A model generated the notes under the pieces. It was given only the letters and a program-made list of their open reading frames with translations. It did no database searches and was not told the DNA's origin. Positions 12,723 to 49,290 of a stretch of DNA of 64,000 nt are shown piece by piece; position 1 is the first letter of the stretch, and each line of letters starts with the position of its first letter. A program made the translations under genes and the position numbers. The stretch is from positions 1-64,000 of the forward strand of contig NZ_JJMW01000041.1 in the NCBI RefSeq assembly GCF_000714435.1, in the 5' to 3' direction. Source of the stretch: Exiguobacterium alkaliphilum 12/1 (GTDB lineage Bacteria; Bacillota; Bacilli; Exiguobacteriales; Exiguobacteriaceae).

Positions 12723-13178
12723 ATGTTTCCATCAAATGAACGAAGAAAAAATAGACGTGTCTTTCTTTATCTGTTCGGATTCGCCTTCATACTGCTACTC
12801 ATCGGTCGCAGTTCAGTCCCTCTTCCTATCGCTTTCACGACCGCTTTTATTCCGTTTGAAGTTTCGGAGCCGACCTATCTCCCTCTAAAATCGACGGATA
12901 CATACGGCAACGTGATTCAATTAAATCAGGCTCGTCTCGTCTATAAAAACGACACGGAACAGTTGACCGTCTGGGCGACGACAGACCTCGGTTGGAACCA
13001 TGTCGCGACGTGGGACGAACCTGTCACATTAGGGGATGGGTCAAACGCTTATTTCAATGACGTGGACGACACTCAAATGGTGAGCTGGCAAGATGGAGGC
13101 GTCGAATATGCGATTGATTACAAGGGGCATCGCCTGTCTAAAGACGATTTATTACGAATCGCAAGTTCAATTCAATGA
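12723..13178 (+). CDS. Membrane-anchored hypothetical protein with DUF4367-like domain
   Basis: 151 residues. A basic N-terminus (SNERRKNRR) precedes one membrane span (about 14-38), so the rest is predicted to be extracellular. The C-terminal stretch VSWQDGGVEYAIDYKGHRLSKDDLLRIA has the pattern of DUF4367 domains often found in anti-sigma-like or lipoprotein contexts. Start ATG at 12723 is 9 nt after AAAGGAG. Role unknown. Confidence 0.65.
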   Translation: MFPSNERRKNRRVFLYLFGFAFILLLIGRSSVPLPIAFTTAFIPFEVSEPTYLPLKSTDTYGNVIQLNQARLVYKNDTEQLTVWATTDLGWNHVATWDEPVTLGDGSNAYFNDVDDTQMVSWQDGGVEYAIDYKGHRLSKDDLLRIASSIQ

Positions 13179-13187
13179 TTTCAAACA

Positions 13188-13215
13188 AAAAACGATCTCA
13201 CGCGAGATCGTTTTT
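13188..13215. terminator. Bidirectional intrinsic terminator
   Basis: A 12-bp stem AAAAACGATCTC / GAGATCGTTTTT around an ACGC loop. It serves both convergent genes and includes the last codons of the yitT-like gene. Confidence 0.85.
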
Positions 13216-13839
13216 TGGTGCAAGCTTCGGTTTCATGACTGCCGGCGCAGGCTGTTCAATCACATCGTCCGTCATCATCTTCGTGACGACACGTCCCGCG
13301 ATCGAGACGGCGACGAGCGTATACAGTGCATTCGACAGCGGCAAATAGATGAGCGAAATCGCCAAGACGATCACATCGAAGGCGATGAGGATCGTTCCGA
13401 CCGAAATTCCGGTCCACTTCGACAAGCCGAGGGCGAACAAATCGTCCCCTCCCGTCGCTCCGCCTGACTTTAAGACGAGCCCGAGACCGTAACCGGTCAC
13501 GATACCGCTCGCGATGGCGGCAAAGAGCGTTGCCGGCCACACTTGTACGTCAAACGTGAGCAAGTCGAGCCGATCCCACATCGCATAGCTGAGCGAAAGT
13601 GACGCCGCCGCAAGCACGGCTTGCCCGACGAAACGCCAGCCTTTCCACCACAATGCGACTAAAAAGAACGGGATGTCGAGTACGATCATCGAGATTGCCG
13701 GATCGATATCAAATAAATAGCGGCCGAGTAACGATAACCCGACGAAGCCCCCTTCTGCCAAACCAAACTGTTCATTCAAATAATAATAACCGAACGCCAT
13801 AATCAGCGTTCCGAGCACTATGGTAGCAACTCGTTTCAT
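13198..13839 (-). CDS. YitT family (DUF161-type) membrane protein
   Basis: 213 residues with five or six membrane spans. The glycine-rich segment GIVTGYGLGLVLKSGGATGGDDLFA near residues 110-134 is the hallmark of YitT/YqfU/DUF161 proteins; the short length means the C-terminal DUF2179 domain found in many members is absent. The start ATG at 13839 has GGGGAGG 9 nt upstream, and that ribosome site is locked in a strong hairpin (13849-13871). An upstream 15-codon reading frame suggests translation-dependent regulation. Function of the family is not established. Confidence 0.8.
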   Translation of the reverse strand: MKRVATIVLGTLIMAFGYYYLNEQFGLAEGGFVGLSLLGRYLFDIDPAISMIVLDIPFFLVALWWKGWRFVGQAVLAAASLSLSYAMWDRLDLLTFDVQVWPATLFAAIASGIVTGYGLGLVLKSGGATGGDDLFALGLSKWTGISVGTILIAFDVIVLAISLIYLPLSNALYTLVAVSIAGRVVTKMMTDDVIEQPAPAVMKPKLAPKNDLA

Positions 13840-13848
13840 TCCGATTGT

Positions 13849-13871
13849 CCTCCCCGTTTTCAACGGAGAGG
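13849..13871 (-). promoter_or_regulatory. Hairpin sequestering the ribosome binding site of the yitT-like gene
   Basis: On the minus strand CCTCTCCGTT pairs with AACGGGGAGG across a 3-nt loop (10 bp, one G-U pair). The right arm contains the Shine-Dalgarno GGGGAGG. A competing GAGGA/TCCTC pairing at 13880-13868 overlaps the left arm and could free the site. Confidence 0.7.
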
Positions 13872-13963
13872 AGGATCCTCAGTCGTAGCTGCGGTTCCAT
13901 CTGTTCCATCTCCGATCTTCCGTTTGTTGATTTTTACATGAATTCAGCTGTAAAAACTCAACG

Positions 13964-14011
13964 CTAGAAGTCCGGCAGTTGGAACAGAGGCCACGTCCTC
14001 TCGGTATCCAT
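13964..14011 (-). CDS. Putative 15-residue leader peptide upstream of the yitT-like gene
   Basis: Reading frame MDTERTWPLFQLPDF plus stop, with a good ribosome site (AAGGAAGGG, 4-5 nt from the ATG at 14011). Codons 9-11 (CTGTTCCA at 13987-13980) are exactly complementary to 13908-13901 downstream. Between the two arms is another hairpin (GTTGA-TTTTTACA / TGTAAAAA-TCAAC). This is the layout of leader-peptide attenuators such as those of erm or cat genes. No experimental support; the inducing signal is unknown. Confidence 0.55.
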   Translation of the reverse strand: MDTERTWPLFQLPDF

Positions 14012-14091
14012 AAAACCCTTCCTTTCTAAAATTGCGCGTAATAATAGAAACAGTTTACCACAATTTCAGTATTCTTTCATTAACTGTACAT

Positions 14092-22317: not shown

Positions 22318-22556
22318 AAAAAACGCCCTTTGCACAGATGCAAAGAGACGGGATGGCCCGCGGTACCACTCTTCTTGCCTGCATGACGCAGACCGCTTTA
22401 TCGGTGATAACGGGGGTCCCCCGGCTACGCCTACTCAAGGTTCGGGTAGCATCTCAAAAGTGCGTTTCGCGACGTCTGTCAGCCTAGGCTCTCACCAATC
22501 CCTAGGTCGCTTTGTTGACTCGACAATCGTTACTCTCTTTTTCATCGACTTTCGTC
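22318..22556 (-). promoter_or_regulatory. T-box leader of argS
   Basis: Minus-strand leader with the AGAGAGTA motif near the base of stem I, GGTGAGAGCC in the upper stem I, and the near-invariant AGTGGTACCGCGG T-box (22357-22372 region). A terminator stem CTTTGCA/TGCAAAG with a T8 run precedes the gene. A plausible specifier is CGC (Arg) in GAAACGCAC. This accounts for most of the roughly 420-nt gene-free stretch between argS and the GGDEF gene. Confidence 0.92.
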
Positions 22557-24468: not shown

Positions 24469-24572
24469 ATCATCCGACTTTTTTATCAAGAGAGACCGAG
24501 GGACTGGCCCTGCGACGTCTCGGCAGCGGGGAACCTGTGCCAAATCCAGCAAGCACGTGCTTGAAAGATGAA
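24469..24572 (+). promoter_or_regulatory. SAM-I (S-box) riboswitch
   Basis: Contains the diagnostic blocks ATCAAGAGAG, GAGGGACTGGCCC, CGGCAGCGGGGAACC and a closing GAAAGATG that pairs with CATC at the 5' end (P1 stem). When SAM binds, P1 forms and the downstream terminator folds. Confidence 0.95.
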
Positions 24573-24591
24573 AAAGGCGCTTCTTACATGG

Positions 24592-49025: not shown

Positions 49026-49290
49026 GTCAAAAAGTCCCTATCGAATCACTCGATAGGGACGACGGTTGCCGCGGTACCACCCTGATTACTAGACAGACGT
49101 CTAGTCACTTCATTCCGGTAACGGGGGACCGCTCAATCGTTGAGAGCTCGCAAACTGTAATTCGATTCATCTTTTGGGCGTGTTCGCAGCACCACACGCT
49201 CTCTGGGCCAGGGAAGATGTCTCTACTTCGGTTTGGTCATCACTTTTACTGTTATACAGTTATGCTTTTATGCACATTCGCTTTTAAGCA
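49026..49290 (-). promoter_or_regulatory. T-box leader of the aromatic amino acid hydroxylase gene
   Basis: On the minus strand: the AAGTAGAGACA block near the stem I base, the antiterminator motif AGGGTGGTACCGCGG (about 49069-49084), and a terminator stem GTCCCTATCGA / TCGATAGGGAC (49034-49060) with a T5 tail. A candidate specifier is TAC (Tyr) in GAATTACAG. This occupies most of the roughly 370-nt gap before ung. Confidence 0.9.

Follow-up and report, generated by a model that had tools for sequence, protein, structure and literature searches.

The yitT gene of Exiguobacterium alkaliphilum 12/1 is preceded by a short reading frame and nested hairpins that, judging from the sequences compared, very probably constitute a leader-peptide attenuator specific to a single clade of YitT membrane proteins. 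The leader was analyzed in a 64,000-nt stretch of contig NZ_JJMW01000041.1 (the window) and in yitT loci of related genomes. By comparison of these sequences, the leader frame, ORF1, is a conserved peptide-coding frame, and the hairpins are conserved with it. We infer that ribosomes stall on ORF1 and where they do so, that a second frame (ORF2) is translated, and the direction of control.

We consider it likely that yitT is controlled by translational attenuation through this leader, with a relay in Exiguobacterium. With no ribosome on ORF1, hairpins A and B would form in the mRNA and keep the yitT ribosome site closed. Hairpin A would open when a ribosome lingers in the 3′ half of ORF1 or at its UAG-C stop. 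In the wider Bacilli, segment 2 would then capture segment 3 and leave the yitT site free in one step; in Exiguobacterium, mainly the ORF2 ribosome site would be freed, and a ribosome translating ORF2 would melt hairpin B, allowing yitT to start (a two-step relay). That Exiguobacterium uses a relay rather than one step is a tentative proposal based on modeled folding. The literature searched, with most subscription journals outside its coverage, yielded no report of a leader before yitT; what appears to be new here is the leader before yitT relatives in the wider Bacilli.

Organization of the yitT leader in the window

All features of the locus are on the minus strand. A promoter-like sequence, CTGAAA-17-TATTAT (14041 to 14069; a 9/12 match in a consensus scan), is located upstream of the leader. 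ORF1 (13964 to 14011) begins with an ATG at 14011, encodes the 15-codon peptide MDTERTWPLFQLPDF, and ends with a TAG followed by C; the ribosome-site-like sequence AGAAAGGAAGGG (14027 to 14016) was read from the sequence in front of it. A 15-codon frame with a ribosome site had been claimed in a preliminary description of this DNA, and both elements were found, with the TAG ending at 13964. In hairpin A (segments 1 and 2; 13901 to 13987), ORF1 codons 9 to 16 pair with 13901 to 13921, with an apical stem between them. As had also been described, codons 9 to 11 (CTGTTCCA, 13987 to 13980) pair with TGGAACAG (13908 to 13901), and the central GTTGA..ACA/TGTA..TCAAC hairpin is present (GTTGA/TCAAC plus TTTTTACA/TGTAAAAA).

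Within hairpin A, a GGAG (13910 to 13913) resembles the yitT ribosome site and is a candidate ribosome site for ORF2. The predicted ORF2 frame (13772 to 13900; 42 codons and a stop) runs through hairpin B and, in the window sequence, overlaps approximately the first 22 codons of yitT in a different frame. Hairpin B (segments 3 and 4; 13848 to 13872) is predicted to sequester the yitT ribosome site GGAGG (13849 to 13853), whose unpaired probability upon folding was 0.00; its strands are TCCTCTCCGTT (13872 to 13862) and AACGGGGAGGA (13858 to 13848). A hairpin hiding the yitT GGGGAGG had been proposed, and the site is indeed shut, by a hairpin of 11 bp instead of the 10 bp given. The GAGGA/TCCTC competitor proposed for this hairpin can form (13880 to 13876 with 13872 to 13868, with a 3-nt loop) but is absent from both the MFE and the centroid structures.

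Folding of the leader gave an MFE of −69.1 kcal/mol, compared to −48.8 kcal/mol (sd, 4.5) for dinucleotide shuffles (z, −4.49), and none of 200 shuffles was as low. The yitT site was paired in this fold, in agreement with the preliminary description, and GGGGAGG was still paired when 240 nt of yitT was added to the window sequence.

The yitT gene itself (13198 to 13839, ATG at 13839) encodes a 213-residue YitT-family membrane protein that matches PF02588 (E, 4.6e-37). Structure prediction gave 8 predicted helices with a mean pLDDT of 83. The protein had no PDB relative by sequence, and a fold search found no match (best Foldseek E, 0.48). When ten neighboring proteins were scanned in seven relatives, no common theme was found.

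Several other features were observed in the window and its relatives. Two T-box leaders (22341 to 22554 and 49052 to 49249, both on the minus strand) and a SAM riboswitch (24480 to 24574, plus strand) scored above their Rfam gathering scores. A weak DUF4367 match was located at 12726 to 13175 (plus strand). In L005, L009, L011, L018, and L019, the apparent start of a YwiC-like gene takes the place of the DUF4367-match gene past the yitT terminator, so the latter gene seems to come and go. In the strain's own genome (G000), three YitT matches of contig C25 recurred in contig C70 with identical positions or a shift of one base; one contig seems to be present twice in the assembly, fitting its listed contamination of 7.58.

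Conservation of the leader in the family and in the wider Bacilli

Both yitT and the leader were found in all 38 genomes of the Exiguobacteriaceae (two genera). The leader frame and the shut yitT site proposed for the window are present in each of them, with the consensus MDTERxxxLFxLPDF-stop and both hairpins, partly rewritten between the two genera. A lack of conservation in relatives, named in the preliminary description as a refuting outcome, was therefore not observed. A scan of genome contigs with the peptide-end pattern matched 39 stretches; the 23 in Exiguobacterium records all had the leader, and the 16 elsewhere were without it. Among 33 distinct family sequences, ORF1 was 15 codons long in every case. 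Its positions 6 to 8 were variable (T/A/I, W/N/D/M, and P/H), while codons 2, 9, 10, and 12 to 15 showed synonymous differences only, which indicates a selected peptide. Codons 3 to 5 (ACC GAG AGG) were invariant, which suggests an extra constraint on the RNA. These codons (ACCGAGAGG; ORF1 codons 1 to 5 occupy 13997 to 14011, minus strand) are similar to GGGAGAGG, the ribosome site in front of yitT in the second genus; on visual inspection, pairing with segment 3 (CCTCTC) seems possible, which would make them another look-alike. The stop context was TAGC in all 32 aligned family sequences.

The hairpins were examined in six family sequences, with z scores of −4.8 to −7.8 for hairpin A and −3.2 to −5.3 for hairpin B. 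Hairpin A was kept in both genera, with the register of its outer helix stable and its inner helix shifted. RNAalifold analysis of 32 sequences identified four pairs, including three in hairpin A, in which both bases had changed; this was the case in 14 or 15 sequences but reflects, in essence, a single divergence of the two genera and not 15 separate events.

A leader is also present in front of the nearest yitT relatives outside the family, which are 41 to 57% identical. At all 20 loci first examined, the frame ended in (F/Y/C/H)DLS(Y/D)(T/I)-stop, and the wider-Bacilli leader end reads [IV]WK[RQ]xDLS[YD][TI]-UAG-C. A degenerate DNA pattern for W-K-R-x-D-L-S-Y matched 62 of 398 Bacilli genomes, at one place each, and a reversed-pattern control gave 0 matches in these 398 genomes. 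All but one of the 62 matches were located 161 to 227 nt upstream of a yitT match on the same strand; the remaining match encodes WKSYDL-stop. A similar leader preceded 69 of 70 outside-family yitT relatives (61 with the exact pattern, 4 with DLSDT or WKRHDLSYT, and 4 with WKQ for WKR), and the only one without it is that of G056, whose yitT match is the weakest (E, 6e-34). The frame and stop were read directly in 43 of these relatives, the others being pattern matches, and in all 43 (39 + 4) the stop was TAG followed by C. UAG-C is probably a poor termination context. Across 39 loci, K, R, D, L, S, Y, and T were each encoded by at least 2 codons, which again argues for selection on the peptide.

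A whole-phylum pattern scan of 398 genomes gave 7 matches, of which 6 were Bacilli already known and 1, encoding WKSCDLTY, was taken as chance. Neither the leader region searched against plasmids nor the leader pattern searched against viral contigs gave any match. No Rfam family matched the leader at its gathering score, and relaxed limits gave only weak matches at chance level; by that test, it does not belong to the known riboswitches, T-boxes, or r-protein leaders. Scattered Arg residues abound in the leaders of some relatives, and none of the leaders listed (family and relatives) has the amino-acid attenuator feature of one residue three times running. Among the sequences compared, yitT is the only gene seen with a leader of this kind.

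Alternative folds were compared in 18 relatives. The shut state (hairpins A and B) had 97.0% of cells paired and 5 pairs changed on both sides, and the state in which segments 2 and 3 pair (2:3) had 96.8% and 6, respectively; slid-partner controls had 33 to 45% paired and 0 to 2 both-side pairs. Pair types beyond the first were not above shuffles (472 of 500 shuffles were as high for the shut state and 368 for the 2:3 state), and the both-side pair counts were matched by 40 and 39 of 500 shuffles, respectively. Since the 18 sequences are closely related and the alignment analyzed was also the source of the structures, this covariation is support, not proof. The 2:3 duplex had a z of −2 or lower at 16 of 21 relatives' loci; L117 (−1.9) and L136 (−1.7) came close, and L118, L124, and L155 were near zero, with the values for L118 carrying no weight because its boundary was set by hand.

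Folding with a ribosome on ORF1 or ORF2

A ribosome footprint was masked codon by codon along the leader, and the cost of freeing the yitT site was computed; all energies are for equilibrium folding, with pseudoknots and cotranscriptional folding left out. In an ermC control, the cost for the start codon fell from 6.2 to 0.2 kcal/mol with the ribosome from codon 8 on, and that for the ribosome site fell from 3.7 to 0.6 kcal/mol. The mean unpaired probability in this control rose from 0.01 to 0.82 in the start region and only from 0.73 to 0.83 at the ribosome site.

In 39 relatives, the core of the yitT site had an unpaired probability of 0.00 to 0.48 without a leader ribosome. Its partner was segment 3 or the leader end, differing by locus; in L114 and L115, leader codons themselves paired with the yitT site (0.67 to 0.78), a mode that was rejected as a general rule. 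The median cost of freeing the site, for 39 loci of which many are close relatives, was 5.5 kcal/mol without a ribosome, 4.5 to 5.2 kcal/mol with a ribosome at least three codons upstream of the last one, and 2.5, 2.4, and 2.2 kcal/mol with a ribosome on the last three codons. The gain from a last-codon ribosome was at least 2 kcal/mol at 25 of the 39 loci and less at 14; at L121, L123, and L132, this ribosome raised the cost by >0.5 kcal/mol. The last-three-codon effect suggests that ribosomes are held up right where the leader ends, which agrees with its fixed C-terminal residues and UAG-C, and we somewhat favor a ribosome delay near the leader's 3′ end.

In Exiguobacterium, a leader ribosome acted mainly on the candidate ORF2 site, the median cost of which fell from 6.1 kcal/mol to 0.3 to 1.8 kcal/mol with a ribosome on ORF1 codons 8 to 15 (16 sequences), with the lowest value, 0.3 kcal/mol, at codon 8. 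In all 33 family sequences, ORF2 starts 61 or 64 nt upstream of yitT and reaches it without a stop codon; its end was determined in 31 of them and is 68 nt inside yitT. The spacer between the ORF1 stop and ORF2 varies from 54 to 66 nt, with one-base changes, and the frame of ORF2 relative to yitT is constant (33/33). A ribosome on ORF2 codons 6 to 11 lowered the yitT cost from 9.2 to 0.1 to 0.8 kcal/mol in 12 Exiguobacterium sequences. Synonymous differences in the window's genus (17 sequences) were 0.035 in yitT codons 2 to 22, where ORF2 overlaps, versus 0.397 in codons 23 to 190; these 5′ codons hardly pair upstream in the window sequence (mean probability, 0.03). Among 25 frames scanned, yitT had the lowest 5′-to-rest synonymous ratio (0.10; next, 0.19), in a scan where some frames were spurious antisense frames and the first yitT window began upstream of the ATG, covering codons 1 to 14 only. 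The freed ORF2 site, the kept frame, the effect of an ORF2 ribosome, and the synonymous depression together suggest a relay from ORF1 through ORF2 to yitT.

We lowered our rating of the relay, as two lines of support for it lose force in the second genus, where the ORF2 GGAG is about half unpaired (0.51 to 0.52) without a ribosome and the synonymous depression is mild (0.252 versus 0.453). The two genera do not share a conserved ORF2 peptide. Among the relatives, an ATG with a plausible ribosome site follows hairpin A at 21 of 22 loci, and the second frame overlaps yitT in the same +1 frame at 14 of 22, including L111, L121, and L130, for which the second-best ATG was used. The second frame of L125 overlaps yitT in another frame, and those of six loci end 21 to 32 nt before yitT. 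A leader ribosome barely changed the ORF2-site cost in relatives (3.3 to 3.0 kcal/mol, 19 loci), so the relay is not general; in their 2:3 state, the ORF2-like site is paired with segment 3. The relatives also show a milder 5′ synonymous depression (0.159 versus 0.329, 15 sequences), and part of the depression may therefore be ordinary for gene starts.

It is possible, if doubtful, that Exiguobacterium also uses a one-step switch of the ermC type, in which segment 2, freed by stalling, pairs with segment 3 ahead of the synthesis of segment 4 and ORF2 is a by-product; the ORF2 ribosome site could merely reflect the resemblance of segment 2 to the yitT site. The strong 2:3 pairing and its covariation in relatives fit such a switch, as does a 2:3 match that reads CGGAGA/TCTCCG in one genus and GGGAGAG/CTCTCCC in the other, but in 5 of 6 Exiguobacterium sequences the pairing was near chance (z, −0.3 to −1.0). 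Although a ribosome at codon 9 lowered the median yitT cost from 9.1 kcal/mol to, at best, 4.8 kcal/mol (16 sequences), in 12 of 13 sequences the yitT site was ≤0.05 unpaired wherever the ribosome stood on ORF1, the value for L070 rising to 0.37. A kinetic effect would be missed by equilibrium folding, but the switch would still not account for the constant ORF2 frame or for the low synonymous differences in the overlap. Simple one-step opening of yitT in the window organism is thus unsupported by equilibrium folding, and the earlier proposal that a leader ribosome opens the yitT site is likewise not supported in Exiguobacterium by this measure. The likeness to erm/cat attenuation that went with it is well supported as regards a leader-peptide attenuator and unsupported there as regards a plain ermC-style switch.

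Other explanations and comparison with known systems

The leader might instead sense antibiotics or general translation stress, as toiL or erm leaders do, a reading that is conceivable but not favored. It shares its architecture with those leaders, and toiL of E. coli answers at least five antibiotic classes (PMC12121999), but the yitT leader has a single fixed peptide end with UAG-C, is found at one place per genome, and serves one target clade, and no resistance role for YitT was found in the literature searched. The strong conserved structure could also suit a ligand- or protein-binding element with ORF1 incidental; this is improbable in view of the codon-level selection on ORF1, its fixed stop followed by C, and Rfam searches that gave no match above chance. 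That the ORF1 product is an independently acting small protein, with no switch in cis, is more improbable still: its peptide is conserved in two sequence classes, but the frame is tied to yitT at a short distance and its codons pair with a downstream arm.

The attenuator reading can be extended to an arrest-peptide family, [IV]WK[RQ]xDLSY[TI]-UAG-C, that would serve in many Bacilli, with one copy in each genome, as a dedicated weak-stop sensor for what YitT handles and would have been rewired into a relay in Exiguobacterium; we regard this extension as speculative and rather unlikely. YitT proteins are widespread, and we found no established job for them, so finding the stall signal of the leader would reveal the protein's role. 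The leader may add a short arrest-peptide family outside resistance genes, and one-step and relay versions would form a natural pair of designs.

TnaC and SpeFL are termination-arrest leaders with conserved residues running up to the stop codon. The conserved residues of the yitT leader also reach the stop codon; in this case, unlike TnaC and SpeFL, arrest there is suggested by UAG-C and the position effect. The ermC leader (pE194) is alike in having a short leader frame and four segments, with the main start shut until the leader ribosome stalls. In Exiguobacterium, by equilibrium folding, the stall itself does not free yitT; moreover, the yitT leader is chromosomal, no drug is known for it, and its peptide is unlike MGIFSIFVISTVHYQPNKK of ermC. 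We did not class it as a member of the ermC type because stall-dependent freeing was not obtained by folding in Exiguobacterium.

In PMC12121999, toiL is described as a uORF of E. coli topAI, with RNA structure governing access to the main ribosome site. The yitT leader likewise would place a main ribosome site under control of an upstream frame through RNA structure; host, peptide, and target differ, and several drugs are shown there for toiL and none here for the yitT leader. For ermA, which has two leaders, one published model holds that stalling on leader 1 activates leader 2, leading to the main gene; for ermB, erythromycin induction of leader 2 was not observed (both from PMC8274638). 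The ermA and ermB attenuators resemble the yitT leader of Exiguobacterium in having two leader frames, comparable to ORF1 and the predicted ORF2, and differ from it in that ORF2 overlaps the start of the main gene and the target is not a methyltransferase.
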